From a virus: DNA of 64,000 nt. The notes below the pieces were generated by a model. That model saw only the letters and a program-made list of their open reading frames with translations, had not been told where the DNA came from and ran no database searches. The DNA lies in IMG/VR virus record IMGVR_UViG_3300049911_000129, positions 1 through 64,000 of that record. The stretch is one strand, 5' to 3'. Positions 1-33,299 of this stretch are shown in pieces. The position numbers and the translations under genes are program-made. Numbering within the stretch: position 1 is the first letter of the stretch; the number at the start of each line of letters is the position of its first letter.

Positions 1-3000
1 GCCGCGAAGGCGCTCGAGGCGGCCGGCTTCAAGCGGGCGACGTTCGACCCGGAGAGCATGGGCGGGCAGTACCGGGGAGGCACCTACAGGATATACTCGG
101 GCGGCAAGGGCTCGGACTACTTCCACGCGGACATCGCCAGGAGGGGGGCGGACGAGGCCAGGTTCAGGGAGGCGCTCGAGGGGGCGGGCTTCAGGGCGAG
201 GCCGATGGGGTCGGGCTTCCAGGTGGAGGAGTCCAGGAACAGCAAGGCCGACAAGGCCGAGATCATGGAGAGCCCCGTCTACGTCAAGCCGGGCCAGCCG
301 GTGCCGAAGGGGGTCGAGGTGCAGCACGGGCCGCGCGGGGGGACGTTCTACGACCCGCAGGTGAGCCCGTCGCAGGCCGGGCACCGGGTGCACATCCCGA
401 GGGACCTGCGAGACGTGGTCCTGGGCGAGACGCCCGTCTGCGCCTACTGCGGCACGTCGAGGGGGCCGTTCCACGCCGACCACATAGTGCCGGTGAAGGT
501 CGGGGGCAGGAACGTGAGGATCAACCTCCAGCCGGCCTGCGCGGCGTGCAACGAGGCAAGGGGCGCGAAGGACCCGTCCCGCAAGCTGGAGTGGATAAGG
601 TACGGCCAGAAGCAGATGCGCGACATCATGGGCCAGGTGCTGGCCAGGCCGCGCGTCGCGAACATGGTGAAGAAGGTCTGGGGGGACGAGCTGTGGCTGT
701 CCTCCCCGTCGCCGTACGCTTCGGCCCTGCTGAAGGGCGCGAGGCCTATCCACCTCGGCCCGGGCGACCCGGTCCCGGAGGGCGCGAGGGAAGTGCGCGG
801 CCCGAGGGGGGGCAGGTACTACGTTCCGGCCAGGGGGGATGCTGGGTCCGAACATGATAGCCGGGACACCAACAACGTCAAGGAACCGACGCAAGCGGAC
901 ACCGCCGAGTGGGCGAGGCAGGACGACGAGCGGGTGGCGCAGGTAAGGCGCAGGGCGCAGGAGCTGGACGACCTCGTGCAGCGCGTCTGGGTCGGGGACT
1001 GGACGAGGGGCAGGTTCGCCGAGACGGTCGCCGGGCTGCCGGACGACGAGCTCAGCAGCCTCAAGGGCTACGTGATCCCGAGGGCCATGCAGATGGTCGA
1101 GGGCAGGAAGGCCAAGGCCGCGCTCAGGGGCGCCCTCGAGACGGTCGAGAGCGAGCTCGGGTCCAGGGAGAAGTCGCTCATACACGGCACGCCGATCGGG
1201 AACCTTAAGGCCATCCTAAAGGTTGGGCTGCTAACCGACAAGGGAGCGTCCAACTTCAGCCTCTCGGCCCCGGGGGTGGTCTACCTTAGCCCGGAGACGA
1301 GGGACGGCAGGCAGCTGTCGCTCACCGTCGCCGCCGCGGCCGCCCTGGTGCACGGGGAGGACAGCTTCGCCGTGCTGCGCATCAGGATGCCGCGCAGGGG
1401 GCTCGAGACCGACCCGAAGTCCTTCGCCAGCGGCGGGATGCTCACGAAGCACGACGTGCCGCCGACTGCGGTCGTGGGCTACGAGGTCTACGACGCCAGG
1501 GACCTCAAGCAGATGTACGAGGACGCGGTCGCGGAGAGGGACGCCCTGTGCTCGCAGCACAACGACGACCCGAAGTACTGCGGGGACGGCCCGTGGGTCA
1601 GCCTCTTCGTCAACCGGTTCGACGACTACGTGCAGGAGAGGGGGATGCCCGAGCCGGTCCGCGAGGTCGACCTGACCGGCAGGCGGAAGGCCGCGGCCGG
1701 GGACATCTTCCTGGCCCCCGCGACAGGGGACACGATCAGGACGCTGCTGGGCTGCTTGCGCAACGAGGGCGGCGGAAGCGGCGATCTTGCGCAAGTCGGC
1801 GGGCTACGGAAGCAGGGGTTCACCCATGAGCACGATGGCTGGCCTAGGCACCCGATAGGCGTCAAGTACCACGACAAGTACTTCCAGGAGCACGGCGGGT
1901 GGAAGATCGGCATGCCGTCCGATGAGCCGGATAGCCCGTACGGCGACGAGAGCGCGGAGGACGAGCTCGACCGCAAGGTCGCGGGCTTCATAGAGGAGAT
2001 AGCCGCCGGCAGGTGGGACAAGGGCGCGACCTTCGCCATGGGCGACGACACGCTCAAGGCCCTGTGGCTGCGGCTCGACCTGGACCTCAAGACCGGCCGC
2101 GTCCAGTTCACCCTCGACACCAGGCGCGCGCGGGACCAGCTGAAGGACCAGGTCATGCGCAGGGGTCTGCTCCCGGGCACGCTGTCGGGTGAGTTCTACC
2201 GCGCCAAGAAGGCCGTCACGGACGGCACGGACTGGGCGATGGACAAGCGCGAGGCGCAGAAGGCCAGGCTCGCGGACGACCTCGGCAAGGCGGCGTTCGG
2301 CGGCAAGTCCCAGTTCGACCGCGCGGCGGACGTGGCCATAGCGGAGGCGATCGCCGCCGGGGTGCTGGAGCGGACCGCCCACGCGGGCTACCACCTGTAC
2401 AAGTATGTCAGCTACGCCGCGGTGGAGCCAGACGAGTCGGGCGCACCGTCATCGCCACCACATAGCAGGCCGATTGGCGGCCGGTGGGGGGTCATCCGGT
2501 GGATGATGGACAACAGCGAGGGGAGCGTCGACAAGCAGCGGTGGGTGTTCGAGATGGAGAAGGCGGCGGAGGGCGACAAGACGTACGCCCTGCTCGCCGA
2601 CATGATGCAGCTCAGCAAGACCGGGGCGACCGGGCTGAGGCAGGACCTGAGCGGCCTGTCGTACTGGCTGCACGCTGGCGGCGAGACGGCGATGTCCGAG
2701 ACGCTCGGCGCGGCCGCTGCTGGCATGATAGTGAAGACGTGGGCCAGGTCCGCTTCTGACCACCAGCCGCTCAGCATAGCCGTGCAGAAGGCGGCCGCCG
2801 CGGAGTTCGGCATGGCGACCGACATAGACGAGTGGACGGGGGTCGCCGCGAGGGACGAGGCGAGGGCGTTCCTGAAGGCGCACGGCGACGAGCTGAGGGG
2901 GTTCACCAGGAAGGTCTACGACCACACCCAGAGGTTCCTCAAGAAGCGCGGGGTGGAGGAGCTGACGCTGGCGCGCGGGTGGGGATGGGACCCGCACGAA

Positions 3001-5622
3001 ACGCCCGAGTGGTTCGTCGACATGGTCCGCGAGGTGCGGCACGACGCGTACTGGAACGGGGAGCCGCCCGCCAAGCCCCTGGGCGTCAGGAAGGCCGTAC
3101 AGCTCAACCCGATGTCGTCCTTCTCGACCGAGTACGAGCAGGCGCAGGCGTTCGCCACCGGGAGGAACGGGATCGTGACCATGGCGAGGGTGCCGATCTC
3201 GAGGGTCCTGTCCACGTTCATGACGGGCTTCGGGTGCGCGACCGAGAACGAGGTCATCGTCCTCGGGGGCGAGCTCGACGCGGTCCACCTCGCCGGAAGC
3301 TCGGAGTCGCTCCCCAAGGACCCGGACGACGCTGAGGACGTGCTGGCGGAGGGCGGGCTGAGGATAGGTGACGCGCAGGAGTGGCCGCCGCAGTCGCCGC
3401 TCTTCAACGCCGCTGAGGGCCCGCAGGCGGTCCCGCTGGACGCGGACGCGTACGACTGGCCCAAGCGGACCAGGGACTACGATCTGCATCAGGGCGATGC
3501 GAATGATAGTATCGCGGGGCTCGATAAGCACCTTCCCGGCCGGCACGACCAGGAGGACCACGGGAACGAGCACAGGCTGTCCGACGCGCACCCGGCGCTG
3601 GGCAAGATGACGGTCGGCTACGGGGGCGATAAGAGGGCGGCCACGGCGAAGGACTGGGAGAAGTACGAGGGGGAGGCCAAGACCAGGGTCGAGGAGTGGG
3701 CGGCCGGCGGCAAGTACGACAGGAAGATGGAGCCGGACGAGATCTGCTACGAGGGTTACCGGCTGAGGGCGAGCGCGAGGGGGAGGAGCGACGCCTGGAG
3801 CTGGGCGCTCTGGGAGGCCGTGCAGAGGTTCGCCGCGTCGAGGGGCTTCTCGTACATGGACGAGGTGACGGAGGACGACGTCTTCGCCGACCCGAGGATG
3901 CCGGAGCCCGAGAGCATCATAGACGACGACAAGGTCAGGGAGCGGTGGCAGGTGGCCGCGCACACGGCCGACAGCAGGCTGACGGACTACCGCAACTCCA
4001 ACAGCGCGAAGACGCTGCTCGACTTCATCAGGACGGAGAGCGGGGGGATGTGGCAGAGGCATTGCCAGCGCGACCTCTGGAACCTGGCCCGCGGGGCGGG
4101 GGGAGAGACGGTCCCGGTCGGCAAGAGGGGGTTCGGCGCCGAGAGGCACTTCGAGGAGTACAGGCCGTTCGCGGAGCCGGGCGGGCTCAAGGGCGCCAAG
4201 ACCTGGGAGGAGGCGCTGGACGCGGAGTTCACGGTCTACCGCGGCGTGGTCAAGGGGGACGAGGCGGAGAACGCCAGGCGCAAGCCGGTCGTCTCGTACA
4301 CGACCTCGCCCGAGATAGCCAGGCTCTTCGCCGAGGGATACTACCACAGCTACAACGTGCCGGGTCAGGGCAAGGTCTACCAGAGGACCTGCAGGCTGCG
4401 CGACGTGCTCAGCTACCTCAACCCGGACGGCGAGCTCGAGGTCCTGCTGAAGCCGCCGGGGAGCAAGGCCGAGAAGGCCTACGGCGGGTATTATACGAAT
4501 GGCGGGATCGCGTTCACGCACGAACATGGCGGGTTGCCGCGGCATCCTGCTGTCCTGAAGGACCACGCGGTTCTGGACAAGCGGTCGGGTGGCCGCGGGG
4601 GGAAGGTCTTCCTGGGCCCGGGCGAGAAGGCTCCGGAGGGCGTGGAGGTGCACGAGGGTCCGCGCGGCGGAAGGTGGTACCAGGGCGGCAAGGCCAAGGA
4701 GCCGGAGCCTGAGCCGAAGAGATCCACCACGTCGAGGCGCGTGCTGGAGGGCAAGACCCCGGAGCGGACGGAACTGGAGGGCGAGACGACCTTCGCGCAG
4801 GCCGGGCTGAGGGGAGGCATCTGGGGTTCGCAGACGGCCATCGCCGAGTGCAAGCCGGGCGTGCTTCCACACGTCGACGGGTTGTCAGACACGAGGCTCC
4901 TGCACAAGATGGTCCCGCAGGACGCTATAACCGAGTTCACGGTGTTCAGGGTCTTCGAGGCGCTCAGGCCGGGCTTCTGCCCGCCGGTCATGCTGGACGA
5001 CCTTCCCGAAAAGGACGACGTGGTGGACTCGTACTACTCGGATCGCCCGAAGGGGCACTCCATGAGGTGGGTGGACGAGGCCGGATTCGGCGGGACAGCC
5101 ATGACGTATGCGCAGTACCTGGCGCACCACGAGGGTCATGACGCCATGACCCCGGCGCAGGCCATGGACGCGGGGTTCATGAACACGGTTGACTGGCTGG
5201 TCTCCAACCAGGACAGGCACACCGGCAACATCATAATCGACGGCGACCGGCTCTGGCCGATCGACCACGGCATATGCTCCGTCGAGTCGATACCCTCCGG
5301 CAACTACGGCGTGGACTACTCGTTCAAGAGCCACCTCAAGGGGCCGAAGACGCTGCGCGCGTTCAGGGACTCGGCGCTCGCCGCGCTCAAGCAGATATAC
5401 GACGACGCGGACGAGGTCGCGTGGGTCATGGTGAGCAGGGGCGATACGCAGAAGAGCGAACGGGTGAAGGGTGTGGATCTCCTCCCGAAGAGTGCGGAGG
5501 TGATGGCCAGGTCGCTCAGGGCCGCGACCGGCAGGGCGGCGGAAGACCTGAACAGGTGGTACAGGGACGAGCTTAAGTACAGGAGGGAGATGCGCCAGGA
5601 GCGGGAGGCTAGGCGGCGATGA
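1..5622 (+). CDS. Giant polyvalent virion protein (HNH, three ART-like regions, kinase), 5' partial
   Basis: The frame is already open at base 1, so the true start lies upstream; residues are numbered from the first internal Met at 58. Visible modules in order: an HNH nuclease at about 125-178 (CxxC, then ADHIVPV, then CxxCN); an ART/DarT-like region at about 373-480 (HGTP..NLKAILK.GL); a classical R-S-E type ADP-ribosyltransferase at about 1015-1070 (SSFST, then the ExE of TENEV, E1063); another at about 1391-1465 (VYRG, SYTTS, GELEV, E1459); and a C-terminal kinase-like domain at about 1586-1740 (NQDRHTGN and IDHG, as in PI3/4-kinase and HipA folds). Three copies of the RGGRYY tag and junction peptides (FTHEHxGxPRHP twice, KHLPGRHDQEDHG once) separate the modules. 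Such arrays are known as phage 'polyvalent proteins'. Packaging with the DNA and action on host targets is inferred. The stop overlaps the next start (ATGA). Confidence 0.85.
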   Translation, partial: AAKALEAAGFKRATFDPESMGGQYRGGTYRIYSGGKGSDYFHADIARRGADEARFREALEGAGFRARPMGSGFQVEESRNSKADKAEIMESPVYVKPGQPVPKGVEVQHGPRGGTFYDPQVSPSQAGHRVHIPRDLRDVVLGETPVCAYCGTSRGPFHADHIVPVKVGGRNVRINLQPACAACNEARGAKDPSRKLEWIRYGQKQMRDIMGQVLARPRVANMVKKVWGDELWLSSPSPYASALLKGARPIHLGPGDPVPEGAREVRGPRGGRYYVPARGDAGSEHDSRDTNNVKEPTQADTAEWARQDDERVAQVRRRAQELDDLVQRVWVGDWTRGRFAETVAGLPDDELSSLKGYVIPRAMQMVEGRKAKAALRGALETVESELGSREKSLIHGTPIGNLKAILKVGLLTDKGASNFSLSAPGVVYLSPETRDGRQLSLTVAAAAALVHGEDSFAVLRIRMPRRGLETDPKSFASGGMLTKHDVPPTAVVGYEVYDARDLKQMYEDAVAERDALCSQHNDDPKYCGDGPWVSLFVNRFDDYVQERGMPEPVREVDLTGRRKAAAGDIFLAPATGDTIRTLLGCLRNEGGGSGDLAQVGGLRKQGFTHEHDGWPRHPIGVKYHDKYFQEHGGWKIGMPSDEPDSPYGDESAEDELDRKVAGFIEEIAAGRWDKGATFAMGDDTLKALWLRLDLDLKTGRVQFTLDTRRARDQLKDQVMRRGLLPGTLSGEFYRAKKAVTDGTDWAMDKREAQKARLADDLGKAAFGGKSQFDRAADVAIAEAIAAGVLERTAHAGYHLYKYVSYAAVEPDESGAPSSPPHSRPIGGRWGVIRWMMDNSEGSVDKQRWVFEMEKAAEGDKTYALLADMMQLSKTGATGLRQDLSGLSYWLHAGGETAMSETLGAAAAGMIVKTWARSASDHQPLSIAVQKAAAAEFGMATDIDEWTGVAARDEARAFLKAHGDELRGFTRKVYDHTQRFLKKRGVEELTLARGWGWDPHETPEWFVDMVREVRHDAYWNGEPPAKPLGVRKAVQLNPMSSFSTEYEQAQAFATGRNGIVTMARVPISRVLSTFMTGFGCATENEVIVLGGELDAVHLAGSSESLPKDPDDAEDVLAEGGLRIGDAQEWPPQSPLFNAAEGPQAVPLDADAYDWPKRTRDYDLHQGDANDSIAGLDKHLPGRHDQEDHGNEHRLSDAHPALGKMTVGYGGDKRAATAKDWEKYEGEAKTRVEEWAAGGKYDRKMEPDEICYEGYRLRASARGRSDAWSWALWEAVQRFAASRGFSYMDEVTEDDVFADPRMPEPESIIDDDKVRERWQVAAHTADSRLTDYRNSNSAKTLLDFIRTESGGMWQRHCQRDLWNLARGAGGETVPVGKRGFGAERHFEEYRPFAEPGGLKGAKTWEEALDAEFTVYRGVVKGDEAENARRKPVVSYTTSPEIARLFAEGYYHSYNVPGQGKVYQRTCRLRDVLSYLNPDGELEVLLKPPGSKAEKAYGGYYTNGGIAFTHEHGGLPRHPAVLKDHAVLDKRSGGRGGKVFLGPGEKAPEGVEVHEGPRGGRWYQGGKAKEPEPEPKRSTTSRRVLEGKTPERTELEGETTFAQAGLRGGIWGSQTAIAECKPGVLPHVDGLSDTRLLHKMVPQDAITEFTVFRVFEALRPGFCPPVMLDDLPEKDDVVDSYYSDRPKGHSMRWVDEAGFGGTAMTYAQYLAHHEGHDAMTPAQAMDAGFMNTVDWLVSNQDRHTGNIIIDGDRLWPIDHGICSVESIPSGNYGVDYSFKSHLKGPKTLRAFRDSALAALKQIYDDADEVAWVMVSRGDTQKSERVKGVDLLPKSAEVMARSLRAATGRAAEDLNRWYRDELKYRREMRQEREARRR
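271..360 (+). repeat. RGGRYY tag, copy 1
   Basis: Protein-level repeat in the giant protein: VKPGQPVPKGVEV followed by HGPRGGTFY. It sits just before the HNH module. This is the most diverged copy at its C-terminal end (TFY instead of RYY). Confidence 0.8.
739..831 (+). repeat. RGGRYY tag, copy 2
   Basis: LGPGDPVPEGAREV followed by GPRGGRYY, placed between the HNH module and the first ART-like region of the giant protein. Confidence 0.8.
4579..4689 (+). repeat. RGGRYY tag, copy 3
   Basis: KRSGGRGGKVFLGPGEKAP, then EGVEVHEGPRGGRWYQGG. It joins the third ART-like region to the kinase-like domain, right after the second FTHEHxGxPRHP junction peptide. Confidence 0.85.
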
Positions 5623-6686
5623 GAGCGGTAGTGTATGCCCTGAAGGACGGCCGGCTGGAGCAGGTCGCGGAGGTGTTCGTGGACGGGCAGGTCAAGGGCC
5701 CGTTCGCCGGCGAGATCCGCGCGTGGATAGGGCACCATGGGTTGGACGGCGAGAAGATGCTGAGGGTCCTGGCCAGGCGGTGGACGACCGGCTACACGGC
5801 GGTCGAGCTGCTGGACGGAGACAGCAAGGAGGACAAGAGGTCCGGAGGCCGGGGCGGGAGGACGTACCTCGGGCCGAAGGAGGAGGCCCCTGCGGGAGTC
5901 GAGGTGCACCAGGGGACGAGGGGCGGGCGGTGGTACGAGGGCGGCAAGAAGGATCCGACCAAGGACTGGAAGATCCACCAGGACTACCCCAAGAGGGAGC
6001 CGAACCCGTACGAGGACTACGCGGTGAAGCCGAAGACGCACGAGGAGATCTTCGACCAGAAGTGGCACACCGAGCGGCTGGGCCAGTGGAAGAGCTTGGT
6101 CGAGGGGGTTGTCCTCGGCCTGCCGTTCGAGCACGCGGAGCTGGTGTCGGACGTGACCGTCACGAAGTACGGCAACAACGGGATAAGCGGGACCTTCGAG
6201 TCGGCGCTGGCCGGGGCGTTCGGCGTCCGGGTGCCGCGCGGGAGGATACTGCTGCGGTTCAAGGGCGCCCCGTTCAATGACACATTCCTTATGGAGACGG
6301 TCGCGCACGAGGTCGGGCACGCGGCGTGCAGGCTCGTCTTCTTCAGCGGGACGGACCACGACACGGAGCTCAAGAAGCGGGTCCTCAGGGCCTACCACAC
6401 CGCCTACAGGGCGGCCGGCAACGAGGCGCTGACGGAGATACACCACAGGCGCTACTTCGCCCCGGCCGCGGTAGCCGGCGCGAGGCAGGCCAGGGCCGTG
6501 TCGCCGTACTCGCTCAAGAACCCGGACGAGTTCTTCGCCGAGCACTACGCCTGGTACCGGATGCACCCGACGTCGCTGCAGGCGCTAAACGAGGAGATGT
6601 ACTCCATCATGAAGGGCGTGTACGGCGGGAGGGAGAACTTCGAGGTGCACCCGCAGGGCGGGCTGAAGAGGGGGCGATATGGATAG
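5619..6686 (+). CDS. Tagged zinc metalloprotease (HEVGH), cargo-type
   Basis: 355 residues, starting inside the stop of the giant protein (ATGA), so translationally coupled to it. Residues 73-109 are a copy of the RGGRYY tag. The C-terminal half carries a gluzincin-like signature: HEVGH at 230-234 in a hydrophobic helix, and an NPDEFFAEHYAWY segment at 301-313 that could give the third zinc ligand (Glu304 or Glu308). Metallopeptidase domains of this kind occur in phage polyvalent proteins. The N-terminal ~70 residues are unrecognised. No signal peptide is visible, consistent with a protein assembled into the particle. It could mature virion cargo or cleave a host protein after injection; the sequence does not separate these. 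Confidence 0.75.
   Translation: MRAVVYALKDGRLEQVAEVFVDGQVKGPFAGEIRAWIGHHGLDGEKMLRVLARRWTTGYTAVELLDGDSKEDKRSGGRGGRTYLGPKEEAPAGVEVHQGTRGGRWYEGGKKDPTKDWKIHQDYPKREPNPYEDYAVKPKTHEEIFDQKWHTERLGQWKSLVEGVVLGLPFEHAELVSDVTVTKYGNNGISGTFESALAGAFGVRVPRGRILLRFKGAPFNDTFLMETVAHEVGHAACRLVFFSGTDHDTELKKRVLRAYHTAYRAAGNEALTEIHHRRYFAPAAVAGARQARAVSPYSLKNPDEFFAEHYAWYRMHPTSLQALNEEMYSIMKGVYGGRENFEVHPQGGLKRGRYG
5835..5945 (+). repeat. RGGRYY tag, copy 4
   Basis: KRSGGRGGRTYLGPKEEAP, then AGVEVHQGTRGGRWYEGG, N-terminal to the metalloprotease domain. Nearest in sequence to copy 3 of the preceding gene. Confidence 0.85.
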
Positions 6687-7330: not shown

Positions 7331-7528
7331 ATGACGAGCAAGACCCATACGCGGAAGGTGAACAGGAAGTGCCCCAGGTGCGGGGAGGCCGTATGGACCG
7401 ACGACGGACCGTGCGGGGATGGGCTCTACTACTGCTACGAGTGCATATTGGGGGACCACTGCGGCTGCGAGCGACACGGGCCGCGCAGGCTCCTGAGGAG
7501 GCTCTGGGATGCCATTCGCAGGGTATAA
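7331..7528 (+). CDS. Small cysteine-rich zinc-ribbon protein, 65 aa
   Basis: ATG start preceded by GGAGA. Contains CPRCG, CYEC and CGCERH, enough for one or two zinc sites, and a basic C-terminus (RRLLRRLWDAIRRV). It overlaps the next start by 20 bases. The 42-base gap upstream holds a GGGCTTC segment similar to other post-stop gaps of this phage and no promoter that I recognise. Function unknown. Confidence 0.6.
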   Translation: MTSKTHTRKVNRKCPRCGEAVWTDDGPCGDGLYYCYECILGDHCGCERHGPRRLLRRLWDAIRRV

Positions 7529-10181
7529 GGACTTCGCGGACTGCACGAGCCGCAACCGGGACAAGGGCGACCCAGACGCCTACTGCGGGGCCATAAAGCG
7601 CGACACGGAGGACAAGGCCATGAATGAGGTGGTAGACCACGGCGGCATGATGGCGACCGTCGGTAAGGCCACGGCGGCTGCGCTGTCGCTGGCCACCGCA
7701 ATCTTCAGGGCCGGTCACCAGCCGCCCACGAGTTGGTCGGGCAGGCATGCCAACCGGGATAAGACATACCTGGCCCCGGGCGAGGAGCCGCCAGAGGGCG
7801 TGGACGTCAAGCAGGGCAAGCGCGGGGGTCGGTACTACGTCGGCCCGAAGCGCGGTCCGGGCACCGAGCACCCGTCGCCGGCGGGGGGCGGAGAGGACGA
7901 GACGCACGGCCCGGCGCGCGGGAAGACGCCGGTCAACCTCCCGGACGCGCGGGACGTGATGGACCAGGTCTGGGACCACTTCGGTCCGCAGTCCATTGCG
8001 ATGGCTGGCCACGCCGCGCTGGTGCAGGAGATCAAGCGCCGGGATCCGGGGCTGTCCAACGACGAGGTCATGAGGGCGGCTGACTCGCTGGCCAACATGG
8101 CGCGAACGCACGTCGAGGGGCACAGGGAGGAGGGGGAGGACATGGGCCCGGAGGAGGAGGTCGGCGGTCCGGCGATGGAGGAGCCGGAAGAGCCGGATGC
8201 TGAGGCGGAGGATCCGAATGAGCTCGAGGAGGAGGTCGGAGAGCTGACCAACCAGCTGACTGACATCCGCGACAAGCTGAAGGACATGGCCAGCATGTAC
8301 CCGTCGCTGCAGGCGACCATCGAGGCGTACATCATACCGGGCTTCGACGACCTGATCGGCGAGGGCCCGAACAGGAACCCGTACAACCAGAGCCTGACCG
8401 GACTGGTCGAGTCGCTGCGCGAGCGCCAGGAGGAGAAGCGCCAAAGCGAGGACGAGGAGCGCTACAGGAGCGAGACGCCGGAGTCCCGCAGGCGGCTGAG
8501 CATGTCGGTCGCGAAGGCGGGCGCCGAGGCGTTGTCGCTGGCGGCTGGCAATCAGGCTGCTGCGGATTCGCTCCACGGCGGGAATGGTCCACCACCGAGG
8601 GGCAAGCGCAAGCCGGGCGACAGCGAGTACGAGAGGCCGTACGGGCCGGGTGTTGGCAGGCGCGGCAGGGAGCCGAAGCAGGAGCCGAGCACACCGGCGG
8701 ACGAGGGCAACATCGCCGGAAGGCGCGAGGCGCAGGGCAGGCTGACGGGCGACGAGGGCAGGGGCAGGGCAGGCGGGCATGACCCAGGAGACGCGAAGAA
8801 CACGCGGACTCGCCGAGCCCGAGGCGGGCCGGACGAGCGTGCCCGCGAGAGGGCGAACGATCCGCACCCGGAGGATATGAAGGGCGGCAGGACCTACCTG
8901 GCGCCAGGCGAGCAGCCTCCGCCGGGGGTCGACATCAAGCAGGGCGAGCGCGGCGGGAGGTACTACGAGGGCGGCAAGCGAGGAGGTGGTAAGCCGCAGC
9001 CAGCGCCGTCGCAGAAGCCGCCGGTCAAGAACTACGGGGAAGGCGGGCCTGCGTTCACGCACGCGCCGACCGATCCGAGGCAGGCAGGCGGGAAGCCACA
9101 ACAGGGTCCGCAGGGCGGCAAGGAGCCGTGGTCCGACTTCGAGCCGGACACGTCCTCGTTCTCCACGGCAGCGATCAAGTTCGTCAAGGACTCGATAGCG
9201 GCCGGCAGGGGACTGGACGAGATCCACGCCCAGCTGCACGAGGCTGGCATGAGCCCGCAGGAGGCGCACGAGCTGGTCGGGATGGGGCTCAAGGGCGCGA
9301 AGCAGACGCCGGGCGAGTACGACCAGGGCAAGAGGCAGGACGCGAAGCCGCAGGGCGCGGGCAAGCCGAAGCCGTTCAATCGCGAGCTCGCTCGCCGGAC
9401 CAAGTTCTTCGTGGACGACATCGTCGGCCGGCTGGACGACAGGGACATGCTCGACGAGTATGACACCGGGATGATCGTCGACGAGGTCATGAACGAGGTG
9501 GAGTCCCAGGCGGGCGCCAAGACGCTCTCGCAGGATGAGTATGTCGCCGCCGGAAGGTACGCGGAGAAGCTGGTGCGCGCGAGGACGGGCGACCCGGACG
9601 ACGACCCGTGGGAGCCGAGCACGGGGGATGAGCAGCCGCAGGAGTACGGGCAGCCTCCCAAGCCGAAGTTCAAGAACGCCCCAGGGAGCAGGTTCAGCGA
9701 GCACGGTGACGCTCCGGACGGCAGGCACGTGAGCGAGTTCGAGGACGAGGACCTCAACCCGGCCGAGCTGTGGCAGAAGGTGGCGGGGCTAACCGAGGAC
9801 CACGATGACGAGGGCGCCAGGCGTACGGCAGGCAACATGGTCGGGAAGCTGGCCGCGGAGCTGGACGCCGCAAACAGGGTGTCGGCCGACCACGTGGAGG
9901 TGCTGGCGCGGAAGCTGGCATCTGCGTACCAGGGCGTGCCGAAGGAGTACATCGATGCTGCGCTCAAGCGGGTGCAGTCCGGGAAGGGGCAGGCGGGCGG
10001 CAACCGGGAGGCGGTCCGACGCTACGAGAACACCCGTCCCGAGGGCGCACCAGCGGGCGGCGGATACGCCATAGCGTACGACCCGAGGACGAAGCGGCAC
10101 AAGGTCATCCAGCACCCCAAGGGCGAGATGACCAGGGAAGAGGCCCAGCAGGACATGAAGGCGCGGAGGCGCCAGCGATAG
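7509..10181 (+). CDS. Large tagged low-complexity head protein, 890 aa
   Basis: The N-terminus (PFAGYKDFADC...DPDAYCGAI, residues 2-29) is a two-cysteine motif I recall from other phage head proteins. There follow a hydrophobic helix (about 45-65), an RGGRYY tag (84-114), an acidic coiled-coil-prone region (about 210-275), a charged Arg/Glu/Pro-rich stretch, a second tag (457-490) and a C-terminal helical part. The last ~140 residues resemble a segment of the next gene (SEFEDEDLNPAELWQK versus TEFDDEELEPFELMQK, then a helix ending in a DEYLDAA-like block). No enzyme domain is recognised. Position immediately before the prohead protease suggests an internal head or scaffold-like protein. Confidence 0.75.
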   Translation: MPFAGYKDFADCTSRNRDKGDPDAYCGAIKRDTEDKAMNEVVDHGGMMATVGKATAAALSLATAIFRAGHQPPTSWSGRHANRDKTYLAPGEEPPEGVDVKQGKRGGRYYVGPKRGPGTEHPSPAGGGEDETHGPARGKTPVNLPDARDVMDQVWDHFGPQSIAMAGHAALVQEIKRRDPGLSNDEVMRAADSLANMARTHVEGHREEGEDMGPEEEVGGPAMEEPEEPDAEAEDPNELEEEVGELTNQLTDIRDKLKDMASMYPSLQATIEAYIIPGFDDLIGEGPNRNPYNQSLTGLVESLRERQEEKRQSEDEERYRSETPESRRRLSMSVAKAGAEALSLAAGNQAAADSLHGGNGPPPRGKRKPGDSEYERPYGPGVGRRGREPKQEPSTPADEGNIAGRREAQGRLTGDEGRGRAGGHDPGDAKNTRTRRARGGPDERARERANDPHPEDMKGGRTYLAPGEQPPPGVDIKQGERGGRYYEGGKRGGGKPQPAPSQKPPVKNYGEGGPAFTHAPTDPRQAGGKPQQGPQGGKEPWSDFEPDTSSFSTAAIKFVKDSIAAGRGLDEIHAQLHEAGMSPQEAHELVGMGLKGAKQTPGEYDQGKRQDAKPQGAGKPKPFNRELARRTKFFVDDIVGRLDDRDMLDEYDTGMIVDEVMNEVESQAGAKTLSQDEYVAAGRYAEKLVRARTGDPDDDPWEPSTGDEQPQEYGQPPKPKFKNAPGSRFSEHGDAPDGRHVSEFEDEDLNPAELWQKVAGLTEDHDDEGARRTAGNMVGKLAAELDAANRVSADHVEVLARKLASAYQGVPKEYIDAALKRVQSGKGQAGGNREAVRRYENTRPEGAPAGGGYAIAYDPRTKRHKVIQHPKGEMTREEAQQDMKARRRQR
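7758..7850 (+). repeat. RGGRYY tag, copy 5
   Basis: DKTYLAPGEEPPEGVDV, then KQGKRGGRYYVGPK, after the hydrophobic N-terminal helix of the 890-residue protein. Confidence 0.85.
8878..8978 (+). repeat. RGGRYY tag, copy 6
   Basis: GGRTYLAPGEQPPPGVDI, then KQGERGGRYYEGGK, in the middle of the 890-residue protein; closest to copy 5. Confidence 0.85.
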
Positions 10182-10182
10182 C

Positions 10183-13100
10183 ATGAGGATAGACAAGTCG
10201 GTCGCGCACGACTGGTCGACCGTCCTGATAGACACGGTCCCGCAGGGGTCCGTGTCCGAGTACGGCCGAGTCAGGATCCTGTACAAGCAGGGGGGGCTGG
10301 CGGAGGACTACGAGCTGGTCATCGCCGGCTACGCGTCGCCGCAGGTCGTGGACCGCGAGAAGCACCTGATCACCAAGGAGGCCATGCAGGCCGACCTGCC
10401 GAGGTTCCTGGCGCACCCGCACTACCGGAACGCCATGATCGTCCACTCCAATATACAGGTCGGGGAGGTGCTCCCGACGTGGACCAACCCAGAGACTAAG
10501 GAGGAGTTCGCGACCAAGGTGGACGACCTCGGGCTCTTCTGCGTCATAAAGCTGCGGACCGACAAGTACCGCCCGGAGATCTGCTCCAAGGTCGAGAAGG
10601 ACGTGCGCGAGGGCAAGCTCGCGTCGTTCAGCATCTCCGGGGACGCCCCGTTCGACAGCAGGCGCCACGTCTGCAGCAGCGGGACGTGCTTCTGGATCAT
10701 CGACAAGATAGAGTTCTACGAGATAACTATCTGCGAGCAGGGCGTGAACCAGGACGCCAAGTTCGCGGTCCTGAGCAAGGCGGCGCACTGCGAGGACGGC
10801 TCGTGCGCGCTGCAGCTCCCGACGCCGTTGACCAGGTCCGCGCTTGCGTCTGCCATCTCCAAGGGCCGGACATACCTCGCACCAGGCGAGGACGCACCGG
10901 AGGGTGTGAACGTCGAACAGGGTCCGAGGGGTGGGCGCTACTACGAGGGCGGGGAAGAGGGCGGAATCGAGCCCGAGGGACTGGAGTGGCGCAACCTACA
11001 TCGGACAGGCGACACGGTGCAGGCCGAGGTAAAGGTGCGCGGCGTCGAGGGCGAGAGTCTGATGGTGCACCAGGAGAAGCGCCCGGCGGGACGCCGTTAC
11101 TGGGGCATGGGCGCCGAGACGTCAGGCTGGTCCGCCGGAAGGCCAGGGTCCTGGCACACGGGGATGACAAATATCAAGACCGCCAAGGAAATGGTTAAGG
11201 CGGCACCGCTGATTCAGGAGGCCGTCAACAAGCATCCGGGGGCGAACAGCGTGCGCGTGAGGGTCGAGCAGCAGGAAAACGGGTTGCTCAAGGTCTCGGA
11301 GTACGACCGCAATAAGTGGACCGAGCTCGTCGGTTCGCAGGCTAAGCCTGGAGCGGAGCCGACACAGGAGGGAGGCGGAAGTCCACTATCCTCCGAGGTC
11401 CACGATCTGGCGGTCAAGCTCGGTCGGCACGCCGCCGAGGCGGGCTGGACGCGCGAGGAGGCGCTGCAGTGGGCGCAAGGCGTGGCGGTCGACAACCGCG
11501 TCAAGGCGAGCGACGTCATGGCAGTAGCGGCCAAGGAGTGGGCCAGGGCGAGCACGGAGGCCAGGAAGCCGGCCAAGGCGCCGACGCGGTTCAACCAGCG
11601 CGGCCAGTCGGACCACGGCAACGTGACGGAGTTCGATGACGAGGAGCTCGAGCCGTTCGAGCTGATGCAGAAGATAAACGAGATCGACGATCCGGCGGTC
11701 GTGGCGGCGTCCGAGAAGGTCATGGTGGACAAGCTCGCCGAGGAGATATACATCGGCGCGCACGCCTCCGGCAGCTTCCAGAGCGCGGCGCGGAAGGTGG
11801 AGCAGAAGTACGGCCGGTTCGGCATGCCCGACGAGTACCTGGACGCGGCGGCGGATCAGGCGCGAAAGCGGAAGACCAAGCCGGAGCGCCAGCAGTGGCC
11901 GAGGCGCGGCGCGAGGCCGCAGGACGTCTTCGGGCTGCCGAGGCGCGGGTACGGGAAGTTCGGGAAGGCGGCGGTCGGCGGAGCGGGCGGCGCGATAACG
12001 CCGATCACGCCGATGCAGGGACCGGAGGCGGCCAAGGACCCGTCGAAGGCCGACATCGTGGGCGAGAAGGCGGGCGGCTCGGCGATGGGCCACGGCAGCG
12101 TGGGGGCGGTTGCGAAGGAGGGCCCGAGCGGTCCGGATAGCCCGCTGACCGAGGGCGAGGTCACGGTCGCGGAGGACTTCGCGGCGAGGATGTGGGAGAG
12201 CATGGGGCGGCCCCACGACTTCGGGCAGTTCAGGCGTGGCCTGGGCGTCGAGTGGGAGCACGCAGACGTCCTGGGCGGGGACTGGCTGAAGGTCGCGCAG
12301 GTCGTGCTGGACCACCTGGCGGAGGATGAGGCGTACTACACCAAGCTGGCGACCATCGAGAAGGGCATGGGCGTGCTTGGCCGGGCGGTTGCCAGGGCTA
12401 TCGAGAAGAGGTCGGGCGGGCGCGGCGGGCGCGTCTACCTGAAGCCCGACGAGAAGGCGCCGGAGGGCGTGGAGGTCCAGACGGGCCCGAGCGGCGGTCG
12501 CTACTATGACAGGAAGGGCGGTGGCGAGAAGCCGAAGGAGTCCGAGGCCGGGGAGAAGCCGCGCACGGGCGAGGGGAAGGGACCGGAGGGATCTGGTGTC
12601 GGTGGTGTCCCGCCGAAGGTTCAGAAGAAGATAGACATAATGAAGGGCAACCTCGAGGACTACGTCTATCGTCTCAAGCACGCCAACGAGAGGCGCGTGG
12701 AGATGGGCAACGAGTATTGGCACGAGCCGAAGTCATACGCCGCCAGGCAGGCGCACAAGGACATCGCGGAGTATCAGCGGAGGGTGTACGACCTGCAGAC
12801 TAAGCTGGAGGATTGGGAGGGCCTGACCGCTGCTCCTGATGACGTGGCGAGGGCCATCGAGAAGGGCGCACACTTCCAGAGGAGCCACTGGCACGCCAGC
12901 AAGATGGTTCGTGGGTACAGTTCGCGCTCGACCGGCTACGAGGTCGAGCCGCATAAGGGTCAGCTGCAGGTTAGATACTACATGGGCAACAGCGACTGGC
13001 GCAAGGAGGTGAGCCTCAAGCGGCTGGGTACCATGAAGGAGGCGCTCGAGGACGCCGGATATAACGTCAAGATGGAGGAGGACTACCTGGTGGTCGGTTC

Positions 13101-15453
13101 GGGCGGCAGGATCAAGAAGGCCGGGTTCGCCGGAGGCGGCGGGGCGGACGTGGGGAGCGGCTGGGCCGTGGAGGTACACGACCCGACGACGGCAGGCAAG
13201 AAGGGCGGCGTGATGAGCGACAGGAAGTTCGACGGGGTGGCCGAGCCGCACAGCCCGGGGCTGGTCGTGTCTCCGCCCGCGGGTCCGCTCGAGCAGAAGT
13301 GCCAGCACGGGTTCGAGAAGGGCGACCAGACGTGGGGCCCGGGAGACTTCGATTGGGCCGGGGACCAGGACGACGACGGGGATGTGGACGCGGACGACGA
13401 CGCGGTCGGGGCCGAGAAGGAGGACCGCGCGCAGATAGGCCAGGTCGCGAGGATCCCGCCGGTCCCGCAGATACGCAGGCCGAAGGCGCCGAAGCCGGCC
13501 GGGGTGACGTACAAGGCCGCGATTGACCCTAGCGAGACCACGCAGTTCAGTCCGACGTACGCGCGGGATGACGCGGCGGGCGGCGAGGAGTCCGAGGAGT
13601 ACTACCTGAACAAGCGATGCCCGCTGTGCGCGGCGCGCGACATCATAGAGGACGCGCTGGACGACCGGGGGATCTATGGCGCCATGTCCGAGGAGTTCCG
13701 CGGCGTGCTCAGGCACAGCCTCGCGGTCCTGCAGGCCGGGACGGGCGGGCTTGACTGGGTGCAGGGCGGAGGCTTCGTGGCCTTGTCCGACGACCACGCG
13801 TACGCCGGCTTCACGAGGCCCGGCTATGCGATCCCGATCGCGGGCGTCGCGGCGGCGATAGGCATGGCGGCGTTCGACCTGGGCGACGTGCGGATGGTCC
13901 GCAAGGCTGTAAAGGTCGGCAACCTGATACTCGAGACGCATCCGGTGGAGGAGCGCGAGTTCGCAGAGGGTCTGGCCGACATTCAGGAGAGGATGGCGCG
14001 CGAGCTCAACATCCAGATGGAGGGGGCCGAGGGAGGCCAGGAGCTGCGCAAGGGCTACCACGTCGGCTGGCTCGGGGACGCGCAGAGGACGCTGGAGAGC
14101 GTGAGGGCCGCGCTCGGCGGGATCAACCGGGACGCCATAGGCGACGAGCTCAAGGTCGCGTTGGACGCCATATCGGCGGACATGGACCACCTGGTTGGCT
14201 CGATCGGCGTGACGGAGCAGATGAAGGGCCAGGTGAAGGGCGTCGAGCCGGCCGCGCTGGACGTGGTGCGGACGGTCGCGAAGGACACCGAGGGCGACGT
14301 CAAGGCGGCCGACAGCGCGCTCGAGGTCGTGGACCCGGAGCGCATAGAGGCGAGGGCCGACGGCGAGAAGGACGAGATGAGCGACCCCGACCAGGTCGCG
14401 CACCCCTCCGAGGTGGCGGTGATGACAGGCGCGCCTCCGGGCGTCCCGACCGGCAACCAGGGCGCGAGCGTGGTGCACAGGGGCGAGGACGTCAAGTTCG
14501 GCGACTTCATAACGAGCAGGCTGCACAGGGTCTACTCCCAGACGGCCGACGACGTGATGGCGCTCGGGCACTTCGAGGACGACGTCGAGCGCAAGAAGGT
14601 CGGGGAGGCTATAGGCGAGGCATTGACCACGTTCAAGGAGGCGCTGACCAGGGACGGGCTGTTCGACCTGGTGCTGCCGTCCGAGGACGCCGAGCGGCTG
14701 CTCAAGGCGGTGATGCCTCCGCCGCGCGGGATAGCGAAGACCGACGAGGACTCGGACCTTTGGGGTGGGCAGAACAGGGGAGCCGGGGTCAGTCCGCTCG
14801 GTCCGACGACCGAGGCGCTGGACACGCTCGATCAGGGCCAGCACCCGGCGTACGGGTACAACAGGGACACCAAGCCGGAGGGGCTGACGAAGGACGTGGG
14901 TGCGCCGACCGCCGGCATGCCAGAGGCCGACGTGGCAGTGAACAGGGGCGTGGCGGTTGACAAGGAGCCGGAGGATCCGCTGGCGGTGGAGGCGTTCGAG
15001 ATGGAGCCGAGCGCGCCGAGGCAGCCAGACCCGGACTCCACGGCCGGGCATGTCGAGGAGAAGGACACGGGAGCGCGTAACGACCGATTCGTGGGCGAGC
15101 CGGATAGGGTGAGCAACAGCCGCCTGAGGAAGGATCCTGCGACCGACGAGCCGATGAACGTCAAGGGCGCCGGGGTCGGCAGGCGCAGCCAGTTCGAGGA
15201 CCAGGGTCCGCCGGGCGAGGTCGAGAGTCCGCAGCCGGTTCGCGAGCGCGAGTATGACAACAGGGGCGCACTGGTGCCGCAGTTGAACATGGGCGCGGAG
15301 GACGCGAAGGCGCTGTTCAAGCTCCACGCGTCGCTCTGGTCGCGGTACGTGAGCGACCCGCGGTTCGGGTTGGCCGTCATCGAGCTGGACGACGGGGGCA
15401 ACCCGGTGCAGATAGTGGACATAGCGAAGAGGACCGGCCATGGGCGCAGATAA
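10183..15453 (+). CDS. XkdF/S78-type prohead protease fused to a 1500-residue tagged extension
   Basis: 1756 residues. Residues 1-215 match the XkdF-like branch of phage prohead serine proteases: a GYAS..VVDREKHLITKEAM beta region, a His box (VHSNIQVGEV, H88) and a Ser box (LASFSISGDA, S150/S152), ending near CEQGVNQDAKF. These enzymes cleave scaffold and capsid proteins inside the prohead. The remaining ~1540 residues are unusual: two RGGRYY tags (226-257 and 742-776), a module shared with the preceding gene (about 475-570), small alpha/beta segments, a CPLC zinc-like motif near 1146, and a long acidic disordered tail. The family is normally only a few hundred residues, so the extension is probably a scaffold- or cargo-like part that the protease may release. 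The stop overlaps the next ATG. Confidence 0.85.
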   Translation: MRIDKSVAHDWSTVLIDTVPQGSVSEYGRVRILYKQGGLAEDYELVIAGYASPQVVDREKHLITKEAMQADLPRFLAHPHYRNAMIVHSNIQVGEVLPTWTNPETKEEFATKVDDLGLFCVIKLRTDKYRPEICSKVEKDVREGKLASFSISGDAPFDSRRHVCSSGTCFWIIDKIEFYEITICEQGVNQDAKFAVLSKAAHCEDGSCALQLPTPLTRSALASAISKGRTYLAPGEDAPEGVNVEQGPRGGRYYEGGEEGGIEPEGLEWRNLHRTGDTVQAEVKVRGVEGESLMVHQEKRPAGRRYWGMGAETSGWSAGRPGSWHTGMTNIKTAKEMVKAAPLIQEAVNKHPGANSVRVRVEQQENGLLKVSEYDRNKWTELVGSQAKPGAEPTQEGGGSPLSSEVHDLAVKLGRHAAEAGWTREEALQWAQGVAVDNRVKASDVMAVAAKEWARASTEARKPAKAPTRFNQRGQSDHGNVTEFDDEELEPFELMQKINEIDDPAVVAASEKVMVDKLAEEIYIGAHASGSFQSAARKVEQKYGRFGMPDEYLDAAADQARKRKTKPERQQWPRRGARPQDVFGLPRRGYGKFGKAAVGGAGGAITPITPMQGPEAAKDPSKADIVGEKAGGSAMGHGSVGAVAKEGPSGPDSPLTEGEVTVAEDFAARMWESMGRPHDFGQFRRGLGVEWEHADVLGGDWLKVAQVVLDHLAEDEAYYTKLATIEKGMGVLGRAVARAIEKRSGGRGGRVYLKPDEKAPEGVEVQTGPSGGRYYDRKGGGEKPKESEAGEKPRTGEGKGPEGSGVGGVPPKVQKKIDIMKGNLEDYVYRLKHANERRVEMGNEYWHEPKSYAARQAHKDIAEYQRRVYDLQTKLEDWEGLTAAPDDVARAIEKGAHFQRSHWHASKMVRGYSSRSTGYEVEPHKGQLQVRYYMGNSDWRKEVSLKRLGTMKEALEDAGYNVKMEEDYLVVGSGGRIKKAGFAGGGGADVGSGWAVEVHDPTTAGKKGGVMSDRKFDGVAEPHSPGLVVSPPAGPLEQKCQHGFEKGDQTWGPGDFDWAGDQDDDGDVDADDDAVGAEKEDRAQIGQVARIPPVPQIRRPKAPKPAGVTYKAAIDPSETTQFSPTYARDDAAGGEESEEYYLNKRCPLCAARDIIEDALDDRGIYGAMSEEFRGVLRHSLAVLQAGTGGLDWVQGGGFVALSDDHAYAGFTRPGYAIPIAGVAAAIGMAAFDLGDVRMVRKAVKVGNLILETHPVEEREFAEGLADIQERMARELNIQMEGAEGGQELRKGYHVGWLGDAQRTLESVRAALGGINRDAIGDELKVALDAISADMDHLVGSIGVTEQMKGQVKGVEPAALDVVRTVAKDTEGDVKAADSALEVVDPERIEARADGEKDEMSDPDQVAHPSEVAVMTGAPPGVPTGNQGASVVHRGEDVKFGDFITSRLHRVYSQTADDVMALGHFEDDVERKKVGEAIGEALTTFKEALTRDGLFDLVLPSEDAERLLKAVMPPPRGIAKTDEDSDLWGGQNRGAGVSPLGPTTEALDTLDQGQHPAYGYNRDTKPEGLTKDVGAPTAGMPEADVAVNRGVAVDKEPEDPLAVEAFEMEPSAPRQPDPDSTAGHVEEKDTGARNDRFVGEPDRVSNSRLRKDPATDEPMNVKGAGVGRRSQFEDQGPPGEVESPQPVREREYDNRGALVPQLNMGAEDAKALFKLHASLWSRYVSDPRFGLAVIELDDGGNPVQIVDIAKRTGHGRR
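10858..10953 (+). repeat. RGGRYY tag, copy 7
   Basis: GRTYLAPGEDAPEGVNV, then EQGPRGGRYYEGG, directly after the protease domain and so at the expected boundary between protease and extension. Confidence 0.85.
12406..12510 (+). repeat. RGGRYY tag, copy 8
   Basis: KRSGGRGGRVYLKPDEKAP, then EGVEVQTGPSGGRYYD, in the middle of the extension. It has the longer KRSGGRGG form shared with copies 3 and 4. Confidence 0.85.
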
Positions 15454-22176: not shown

Positions 22177-23574
22177 GTGGACTACGGATCGATCCTCAAC
22201 AAGAGTGGACAGGTATGGAGCCCGAGGAACCTGGCGGACTGGCTGATGCGGGTCCCCGGTGGCGCCTCGCCTCGCGAGATGCGCTACGGCTACTTCGGTT
22301 CCAGCAATGGGCTGCTGCAGAAGGACATCACCGCGGTCGGTGACTCCTTCGTCAGCACCGACTTCTTCGTTAACACCTTCGGCGCGAAGGTGTGGGACTC
22401 GCTCAACTCCCAGACCAGGTTCTTCAACCTGCTCCGGAAGGTGGCGTGGGGTCCAACCACAGGTTACAGGATCCGGTCCGGTCGTAACCTGAGCACGCAG
22501 CCTGTCTCCGAGACTGGCGCGCTGCCCACGATCGACAGCCCGGATCTCGAGACGGTGTACATCCAGCCGAAGTTCATCGTTACGTCCGTGGGCGTGACGG
22601 CCCTGGCGCAGTTCCTCGGCACCCTCGAGGGTGGCATTGGGGACGCCCTGGCCGTGGCCCAGGAGACGGCGATGATCGACCACACGAAGCGGCTGAACCA
22701 GATGCTTCTGGCGTCCGGTTCGCAGCGCGTCGTGGCCGGCGGTGGCACACCCGACACCCTGATCGATGCAAGCTGGCTGAGCGTCGGCGACGTGCTGAAC
22801 GGCACGACGGTCGCCGGTGACGTGACAATCACCGCGATCACCCTGCCGAACATCGTGGCCTACGGCGGCAACGCCCTCGCGACGGACGAGATCGTGTTCA
22901 TCGCGTCCAGGGCGGGCTTCGCGAGCATCGACGACATCGTCGAGATGACGAACCGCACCGTCAACGGAGTCGCGCTGGGAGCCGCGAAGGCGCCGAACTA
23001 CGGCAGCCTGGTGATGGCCGACCGCGACCTCGACTTCTGGAGCGCTTCGGGTATCTACGATAATGCGGGTGACCTGAGGCACTTGACGACCGGCCTGGTG
23101 GACCAGGCGATCGACGGGTCCAGGCGGAAGGGCGGCGAGCCCGACCTCATTCTGACCGGCGTGGAGCAGGTCACGAGGCTGGGCACCATCCTGCAGGCCA
23201 ACCAGCACTTCATCGGCGAGGGGACCTTCCAGGTCAAGCTCGGCGGTGAGGGCACGCTGAAGGGCTACCCGACGGGCTTCCAGGTGGCTACGTACAAGGG
23301 CATCCCAGTCTTCCACGACTTCGACTGCCCGGGTTCGTACCAGAAGGCGGCCAACGGCGACTCCAAGCGCGGCGCGAACGTGTACGTGCTGGACACCCGG
23401 TTCCTCGAGGTCCCTGTGCTGTTCACAACGCAGTACATGGAGTCGAGGGACTACCTCCAGAACAACATGCTCGGCGTGAAGGCCATCTACCTGACCGCCG
23501 GGAACCTGCGCTGCCTAGACTTCGTCAAGCAGTCCAAGGTCTGCGACCTGAGCGACGGTATCAACCTGACCTAG
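22177..23574 (+). CDS. Major capsid protein, HK97 fold
   Basis: GTG start with AGGAGG 8 bases upstream, 465 residues. Sequence character fits the HK97-fold capsid family: a helical N-arm, a long beta-rich centre, a spine-helix-like stretch (GGIGDALAVAQETAMIDHTK), the A-domain block LVDQAIDGSRRKGGEPDLIL, and the C-terminal YKGIPVFHDFDCP and QYMESRDYLQNN segments. Immediate context (scaffold before, decoration-like genes after, own promoter) is that of a capsid gene. No separate long propeptide is obvious; the scaffold is a distinct gene. Confidence 0.85.
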   Translation: MDYGSILNKSGQVWSPRNLADWLMRVPGGASPREMRYGYFGSSNGLLQKDITAVGDSFVSTDFFVNTFGAKVWDSLNSQTRFFNLLRKVAWGPTTGYRIRSGRNLSTQPVSETGALPTIDSPDLETVYIQPKFIVTSVGVTALAQFLGTLEGGIGDALAVAQETAMIDHTKRLNQMLLASGSQRVVAGGGTPDTLIDASWLSVGDVLNGTTVAGDVTITAITLPNIVAYGGNALATDEIVFIASRAGFASIDDIVEMTNRTVNGVALGAAKAPNYGSLVMADRDLDFWSASGIYDNAGDLRHLTTGLVDQAIDGSRRKGGEPDLILTGVEQVTRLGTILQANQHFIGEGTFQVKLGGEGTLKGYPTGFQVATYKGIPVFHDFDCPGSYQKAANGDSKRGANVYVLDTRFLEVPVLFTTQYMESRDYLQNNMLGVKAIYLTAGNLRCLDFVKQSKVCDLSDGINLT

Positions 23575-32099: not shown

Positions 32100-33299
32100 G
32101 TGACTACCGGGAACCAGGAAGTAGTCTTCCGAATGGTGCTGGACGCGTCCGACCTGCAGCGGGTCATGGCTGCGGGCGGCGTTGCCATGCCAGGCGGCGG
32201 GGTCGGTGGGCATCCTGCAGGCGGCGGCGGGACTGGCGTGATGGTTCGGCCGGACCCGTCGTTCATGTCCATCTTCAAGCCGCTCGCCGCGATGGAGATC
32301 ATAAAGGTCGGCATCAGCGAGCTGGTCCGGAGCAGCCAGGTCGTCGGGTCGTACGTGGACGCCTACCGCCGCATCTTCGGCGCGTTCGCCGACCTCATCA
32401 TGGCGGCGCTGTCGCCGTTCCTCAACGTCGGCATGCTCTTCATGACGACCATCTTGCAGTCGCTGATCCAGAGCGGCCTCTTCCAGAAGCTGCTGCTGTG
32501 GAGCCAGAGCCTGGCCAAGGACATGTCCAAGTGGATCAATGACCATGCGCCGCAGATCGAGGCGTTCGTCAAGAACGTGGTCGAGAGGACGGGCGACGTC
32601 TTCCGCATCATCGGCGACGTGGGCGGGTGGATCATCGACAAGTTCACCGACGTGACGGGCTGGCTCGACAACCACCTCGGCGGGTTCGGCAGCTTCGCCG
32701 CGGACGCGCTGCGGATCCTCGCGGTGATCGCCGCCGCGGTCGTCATCGGCAAGGGCATAAGCGCGGTGGTCCCGGGCATGGGCATGCTCGGTATGGGATG
32801 GGGCGCAGGGGGCGCAGGGCTGAGCCTCGGCAAGGGGCTGATGAGCATGGCGACCATGGGCCCCGGCGGCGTCGGTCCGCTCGGCGCACTCGGAACGGCC
32901 GGCCTCGGCATCGGGGGCGGCCTCCTGGCTGGCTACGGGCTGGAGAAGGCGGGGGCGCCTAACTGGGCACAGAACGCGGCGCGGGCAGGCCTGATGGGCG
33001 CCGGCATCGGCGGGATGTTCGGCCCGGAAGGCGCGCTGATCGGCGGCGGCCTAGGCCTGGGCATGGCCGGGCTGGAGGCGGCCGGCGTCCCGATCGACAA
33101 GATCCCCGGCTTGGGCAAGCTGTTCAAGCCGCCCGGCGGCGGGGGTGGCGGCGGGGGCGGCGACACGAACGTCCAGAACTCGGGCAACATCGTGAACCTG
33201 AACGTCGACGTCAGCGGCATGAAGGACCCGGAGGGCGCCGCCAAGCAGATGATCGAGGAAGCGAACAGGAACCTTGGATACCAGATGGGTCGCGGATAG
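32100..33299 (+). CDS. Short tape measure protein
   Basis: GTG start, 399 residues. Hydrophobic, Gly/Ala/Met-rich centre (several membrane-like helices, GLGIGGGLLAGYGLEKAG), amphipathic helices before it, a poly-Gly linker and a polar C-terminus (VNLNVDVSGMKDPEGAAKQM). Position after gpG/gpGT identifies it. Using the usual ~1.5 angstrom per residue ruler, the tail would be about 60 nm, short for a siphovirus. The end overlaps the RNase HII start. Confidence 0.75.
   Translation: MTTGNQEVVFRMVLDASDLQRVMAAGGVAMPGGGVGGHPAGGGGTGVMVRPDPSFMSIFKPLAAMEIIKVGISELVRSSQVVGSYVDAYRRIFGAFADLIMAALSPFLNVGMLFMTTILQSLIQSGLFQKLLLWSQSLAKDMSKWINDHAPQIEAFVKNVVERTGDVFRIIGDVGGWIIDKFTDVTGWLDNHLGGFGSFAADALRILAVIAAAVVIGKGISAVVPGMGMLGMGWGAGGAGLSLGKGLMSMATMGPGGVGPLGALGTAGLGIGGGLLAGYGLEKAGAPNWAQNAARAGLMGAGIGGMFGPEGALIGGGLGLGMAGLEAAGVPIDKIPGLGKLFKPPGGGGGGGGGDTNVQNSGNIVNLNVDVSGMKDPEGAAKQMIEEANRNLGYQMGRG

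Follow-up and report, generated by a model that had tools for sequence, protein, structure and literature searches.

The window, by which we mean the whole 64,000-nucleotide stretch analysed here, opens with a giant gene that very likely encodes a multi-enzyme polyvalent head-cargo protein, and the short tags that recur between its enzyme modules proved to be a more informative feature than the sequence-only reading of this DNA had allowed. The window covers the first 64 kb of IMG/VR record IMGVR_UViG_3300049911_000129, which has 99,994 bases. All motifs named in the earlier reading sit within a single open frame on the plus strand, and its claim of one frame of more than 1,850 residues was borne out. 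The gene is cut at the first base of the record, so the N-terminus of the protein is missing and its 1,873 residues are a minimum. In the sister virus G001 (the record of L023), whose portal is 79% identical to that of the window virus, a collagen-like repeat gene precedes the counterpart of the giant gene by a few kilobases. The last gene of the window record is a collagen-like GxT repeat frame (L008:19407-19994), inside which the record ends, and it shares 72% DNA identity with the G001 frame across their common segment. Since this homologue lies just upstream of the giant gene in G001, the two ends of the record flank the same place, an assembly gap, and the 5' part of the giant gene is therefore absent from the record. 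The features of the available part are as follows.

1-5622, plus strand: polyvalent protein gene, an open frame of 1,873 codons with its 5' end missing
268-357 (aa 90-119), plus strand: T1 tag 1, YVKPGQPVPKGVEVQHGPRGGTFY, found by pattern and HMM
358-735 (aa 120-245), plus strand: HNH nuclease module, Pfam PF01844 (2e-8)
739-828 (aa 247-276), plus strand: T1 tag 2, found by HMM
1117-1500 (aa 373-500), plus strand: ART1, H-type ART-like, KptA/Tpt1-like region with weak matches (HGT 395, YLS 428-430)
1819-1884 (aa 607-628), plus strand: T3 motif FTHEHDGWPRHPIGVKYHDKYF, also repeated in G001
2716-3330 (aa 906-1110), plus strand: ART2, DRAT-related R-S-ExE ADP-ribosyltransferase (R992, S1040, E1082, E1084)
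3526-3564 (aa 1176-1188), plus strand: T2 motif KHLPGRHDQEDHG, KHLPGxHDQxxHG class
4171-4500 (aa 1391-1500), plus strand: ART3, R-S-ExE ADP-ribosyltransferase (R1414, SYTTS 1432-1436, E1478/E1480)
4513-4548 (aa 1505-1516), plus strand: T3 motif FTHEHGGLPRHP, FTHEHxGxPRHP class
4597-4686 (aa 1533-1562), plus strand: T1 tag 3, three short strands in the model
4696-5619 (aa 1566-1873), plus strand: PI3/4K- or SCO1664-like kinase module (ECKPG 1616, NQDRHTGN 1736, IDHG 1754)

The protein is a polyvalent effector protein, a class described by Iyer, Burroughs, Aravind and colleagues in 2017 (PMC5512222), and we regard it as a variant of that class because ARTs, kinases and peptidases have been described in polyvalent proteins before (PMC5512222; PMC9503650). 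As in the described proteins, which include ARTs, kinases and metallopeptidases, are encoded among head genes and are likely packaged and injected, several disparate enzymatic domains share one phage polypeptide, here an HNH nuclease, a pair of R-S-E ARTs and a domain resembling a kinase. The gene is encoded with virion components, with a prohead protease 4.5 kb downstream and the MCP at 22177-23574, and the head region of G001 has the same layout. Its domain content and the tags on head genes suggest that this effector is probably packaged in the virion. It differs from the proteins of PMC5512222 in its kinase, which is of PI3/4K type rather than a truncated protein-kinase-type domain, and in the recurring tags that separate its modules, which we did not find described in that paper (the word 'linker' is absent from its text). 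MuF polymorphic toxins (PMC5576092) likewise attach effector domains to phage head proteins, but the available part of the window protein, which lacks the N-terminus, has no match to a MuF domain in Pfam or PHROG, and the MuF-like gene of the window virus is separate and untagged. In another sister virus (G002, L009:6678-11696), a 1,673-aa protein read from its sequence apparently combines ARTs and tags with a peptidase-like HExxH region and a C-terminus resembling MuF in a single chain. Close-relative searches of viral contigs returned no relatives of the whole protein, of ART2 or of the kinase; relatives of the giant protein were reached through the tag patterns only.

The HNH domain claimed from the letters is confirmed by its PF01844 match and by a motif that lies in frame (CAYC..ADH..CAAC, aa 147-183). 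The module also matches PHROG (2e-12) and is 66% identical to G001 aa 883-1012, and PADLOC matches were almost all to HNH.

The earlier reading had also named three ART-like regions, two of which stand. On their motifs and profile matches, ART2 and ART3 are well supported as catalytic-looking R-S-ExE ART domains, each with R, S-x-S and ExE following one another as expected of the triad. When scored against an R-S-E profile from which window sequences were left out, ART2 reached 99.6% probability and ART3 96% (hhalign, E 2e-9), while other window segments reached at most 2.2%. ART2 has a Pfam DRAT match (1.2e-4) and about 25 relatives among the tag-bearing contigs, and conservation at its R, S and ExE positions is 90% or more across 15 aligned sequences. 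It is 33% identical to the Bacillus phage SP-15 protein SP15_258, and its top structural match in BFVD is a protein of SP-15; SP15_258 differs in being stand-alone, about 470 residues long and encoded among small hypothetical genes. A query of PDB sequences with ART2 gave chance-level rows only. The expectation of ART folds in predicted structures held for ART2, which has pLDDT mostly 75-95 in the AlphaFold model and whose structural matches (model residues 1-238) are mostly ART enzymes (SpvB, HopU1, C2-I, C3, cholera A), at Z 4.7-5.8, modest values that fall short of a clear match for a model of 979 aa. ART3 has no Pfam match; in model A its strand/helix order fits an ART, at pLDDT of about 44-66.

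The first of the three regions, ART1, had been called DarT-like on its HGTP motif (HGTPI at aa 395). We dropped this name in favour of KptA/Tpt1-like, following the best, though non-significant, matches; Pfam returned no DarT match at E up to 10, which is not evidence against DarT. The best Pfam match is PTS_2-RNA (KptA/Tpt1; E 0.22, and 12 bits against a curated cut-off of 26) and the best PDB sequence match an RNA 2'-phosphotransferase (E 0.096), each non-significant alone, and both alignments span the HGT and YLS motifs. ART1 is 51% conserved in G001, and a third enzyme or ART-fold region of the KptA/Tpt1-like, ADP-ribosylating kind is weakly supported here. In model B (aa 85-905) the ART1 part has pLDDT 55-87, but the model is uninformative on the HNH or ART1 folds, because its overall pLDDT is 44 and its structural rows mainly concern a helical pair at and after the end of the HNH core.

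The proposed kinase-like domain is upheld at the sequence level. The module matches TIGR03843 (E 7.8e-6) at 25.4 bits against a curated cut-off of 172.4, and the domain scanned alone matches PF00454 (8e-4) at 19.8 bits against 27.1; since both scores fall below the cut-offs, we regard it as related to SCO1664/TIGR03843 and PI3/4 kinases rather than as a member. Its alignment gave no match among PDB sequences. The kinase part of model A, mostly below pLDDT 60, is too poor for a fold test, and its Foldseek rows are weak PI4K/PI3K/HipA matches (E 0.5-1.5). In the window, L156 and L171 the tag that precedes this module is T1, in L079 it is T2 and in G001 T3, and a PGHPFRGNQW motif precedes it in L096, so the same enzyme can follow different tag classes. 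An ORF of L079 (1926-4328) apparently joins a T2 tag and a kinase module to sequence resembling MuF and a stretch resembling an intein. The L096 motif, GDxPGHPFRGNQW, is repeated on four ORFs (222-2564, 2568-3632, 3636-4655 and 5966-6544), once before the kinase module and once in a T2-bearing ORF, and is possibly another tag class.

The T1 tag is a motif of about 30 residues, K.[RK][VIT]Y[LIV]....[ED]AP.G[VA].V..G.RGG.[YFW]Y ('GPRGGRYY'). The window contains five matches to its DNA pattern where 0.00 are expected, and by HMM the window virus has eight copies in four nearby genes, three of them in the giant protein. The other tagged genes follow downstream.

5619-6686, plus strand: tagged HExxH metallopeptidase-like protein, 355 aa (M90 0.003, SprT-like 0.011)
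5853-5942, plus strand: T1 tag of the 355-aa protein, found by HMM
7509-10181, plus strand: tagged protein, 890 aa, with two tags (7755-7844 and 8883-8972)
10183-15453, plus strand: prohead protease (aa 41-201) with long tagged regions, 1,756 aa (phrog_23555 2.6e-12; TIGR01543 4e-5)
10861-10950, plus strand: T1 tag of the protease protein (aa 227-256), at the N-terminal edge of stretch aa 236-565
12424-12513, plus strand: T1 tag of the protease protein (aa 748-777), at the N-terminal edge of stretch aa 750-937

The 355-aa protein has a homologue in G001 that is 36% identical. The protease protein is colinear with that of G001 except for aa 236-565 and 750-937, which G001 lacks, and each of these extra stretches begins at a T1 tag, as suits tag-led cassettes. 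The 890-aa protein looks internally duplicated, with two stretches that match one region of its 603-aa G001 homologue.

Among viral contigs, the T1 DNA pattern found 64 stretches and a one-base-shifted pattern found one; the latter, one N shorter, is a fair control as its specificity is nearly equal. The HMM extended this to 121 tags in 104 ORFs at 76 loci. Pfam recognized nine portals among 76 non-redundant T1-tagged ORFs, and Pfam and PHROG together added head-maturation proteases and minor head proteins as well as effectors (ART exoenzymes, zeta toxins, DRAT and PI3/4 kinases). The T2 motif KHLPGxHDQxxHG was found by pattern in 78 stretches and occurs in 51 ORFs, 17 of which are MuF proteins by Pfam; PHROG gave 19 head-protease and 18 portal matches, and ART exoenzymes and HNH also occur in this set. 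The bias towards head proteins is not built in, because the ORFs were selected by DNA pattern alone. No Pfam family covers the T1 tag, while phrog_24083, annotated as of unknown function, matches 38 T1-tagged ORFs. The T1 tag was not found in plasmids, and a 20-aa T2 query, so short that it has little power, had no match among isolated phages. We did not find the tags described in the open-access papers searched, where other wording may have been used.

T1 is also present in the cultured haloarchaeal viruses HVTV-1 and HCTV-5 (Druskaviridae), whose giant proteins gp115 and gp114, annotated as zeta toxin or zeta toxin plus ParB nuclease, are T1-tagged and encoded before the prohead protease and capsid genes, as in the window virus. 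They differ in their archaeal hosts and other enzyme modules; the R-S-E profile found only one weak stretch in HCTV-5.

Within one virus the tags resemble each other. Tags in different ORFs of one contig are on average 55% identical, against 45% between contigs, a similarity reached in none of 2,000 permutations, and the trend was seen in all 15 contigs tested. Whole-gene duplication fails to explain this, because the 30 residues on either side of the tags are only 6-9% identical, within and between viruses alike, which is the background level. A shared binding partner would explain it, as would duplication or conversion of the tags.

We lean slightly towards a head-packaged cargo protein made of tag-plus-enzyme cassettes, with the tags acting like the T4 capsid targeting sequence. 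The giant effector would be made together with the phage head and assembled from cassettes in which a short tag leads into an enzyme module (the HNH nuclease, the KptA-like ART-fold region, each of the two R-S-ExE ADP-ribosyltransferases and the PI3/4K-like kinase). The T1, T2 and T3 tags would most likely bind a shared procapsid partner (scaffold, portal or shell) and so load the protein into the head, and at infection the cargo would pass into the host together with the DNA, where it would modify proteins or nucleic acids of the host. The domains, the tags, the link of the tags to head proteins in many viruses, the gains and losses at tag borders and the likeness of tags within one virus are observed; we infer the loading, injection, catalysis and targets, and with them the modification of several host targets that the sequence-only reading had suggested.

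That the tags in particular are head-loading labels we consider evenly balanced. Tags that stand alone or near a terminus, together with the three strands predicted for T1, speak for a binding unit, short of proof. The T4 targeting sequence is short, N-terminal and cleaved. Diverse counter-host internal proteins of T4 share only this short conserved sequence, which directs them into the prohead core (PMC3012670). T1 and T2 differ from it in sequence, are longer (about 30 aa for T1), often internal and repeated, come in several classes, and also occur on portal, protease and MuF proteins; loading here is only predicted from the association with head proteins. Against labels it can further be said that tags on portals sit directly behind the portal core, a position that also suits a linker or a cleavage site, that duplication or gene conversion could account for the within-virus similarity with no shared partner, and that we found no tag on either the portal or the MuF-like protein of the window virus itself.

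The tags could instead be prohead-protease sites, at each of which a giant polyprotein would be cut inside the procapsid into separate ejectable enzymes. They do mark the borders between modules, the prohead protease encoded alongside carries a tag of its own immediately after the catalytic domain, and P1 DarA and DdrB undergo proteolytic processing prior to packaging or in the course of it (PMC5512222; PMC12810830). We nevertheless think such cleavage unlikely, since 69 of the 80 tagged ORFs have a single tag, roughly half of the tags are no more than 110 aa away from the first Met, gp114 of HCTV-5 is tagged close to each end, and T1 tag 3 is predicted as three strands (pLDDT block means 72-79), which resembles a small folded unit more than it does an exposed site.

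For the HNH module alone, a homing-type mobile element lodged in a head gene would be an alternative to an effector. Free-standing HNH genes are scattered through the head modules of HVTV-1 and HCTV-5, and the module has tags on both sides in both sister viruses, T1 GPRGGRYY tags in the window virus and KHPGHDDQSVHG motifs in G001. We rate this as distinctly unlikely, because the HNH is in frame and conserved in G001 at a different position within the protein, and other T2-tagged ORFs also contain HNH.

Least probable are neutral linkers or recombination joints that serve cassette swapping and have no role in the protein: the T1 copies of the record share 73-78% DNA identity, the HNH changes its flanking motifs between the sister viruses, and the two stretches of the protease protein that G001 lacks start at tags, but T1 positions P13, G15, G21, G24, G25 and Y28 are conserved in the protein at 92-100% in viruses of both bacteria and archaea, single tags are found in ORFs with one module and close to protein ends, and the tagged ORFs are biased towards head proteins.

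Returning to head-loading labels, we tentatively propose, at less than even confidence, that tailed viruses of Bacteria and Archaea share undescribed interchangeable cargo labels (T1, T2, the kindred KHPGHDDQSVHG, and PGHPFRGNQW) that load enzymes into the head, with cassettes moving between the genes for effectors, portals, MuF proteins and proteases. If true, the T4 capsid targeting sequence would have a general counterpart in these labels, through which a sequence search could list injected effectors. The phage proteins injected with DNA are usually unknown and are found one virion proteome at a time. Tags that mark head cargo would make predicted injected effectors searchable across thousands of uncultured viruses, allow direct tests of the tags in cultured haloviruses, and explain how polyvalent proteins come to be assembled and rearranged.

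Other genes of the record give clues to the host. DnaB, a DnaG-type primase, Cpn10 and an M23 peptidase on a long structural-type protein suggest a bacterial host; the only match of the capsid protein among annotated phage records is a Methanofastidiosa virus. The M23 peptidase domain (5e-19) ends an 857-aa protein (window 36313-38886), probably a tail protein acting on peptidoglycan, and the Cpn10 co-chaperonin is phage-encoded at L007:18426-18761 (3e-9). The phage also encodes an RtcB RNA ligase (L008:15901-17076; 1e-110) and an RNase HII (window 33274-33864; 2e-29).
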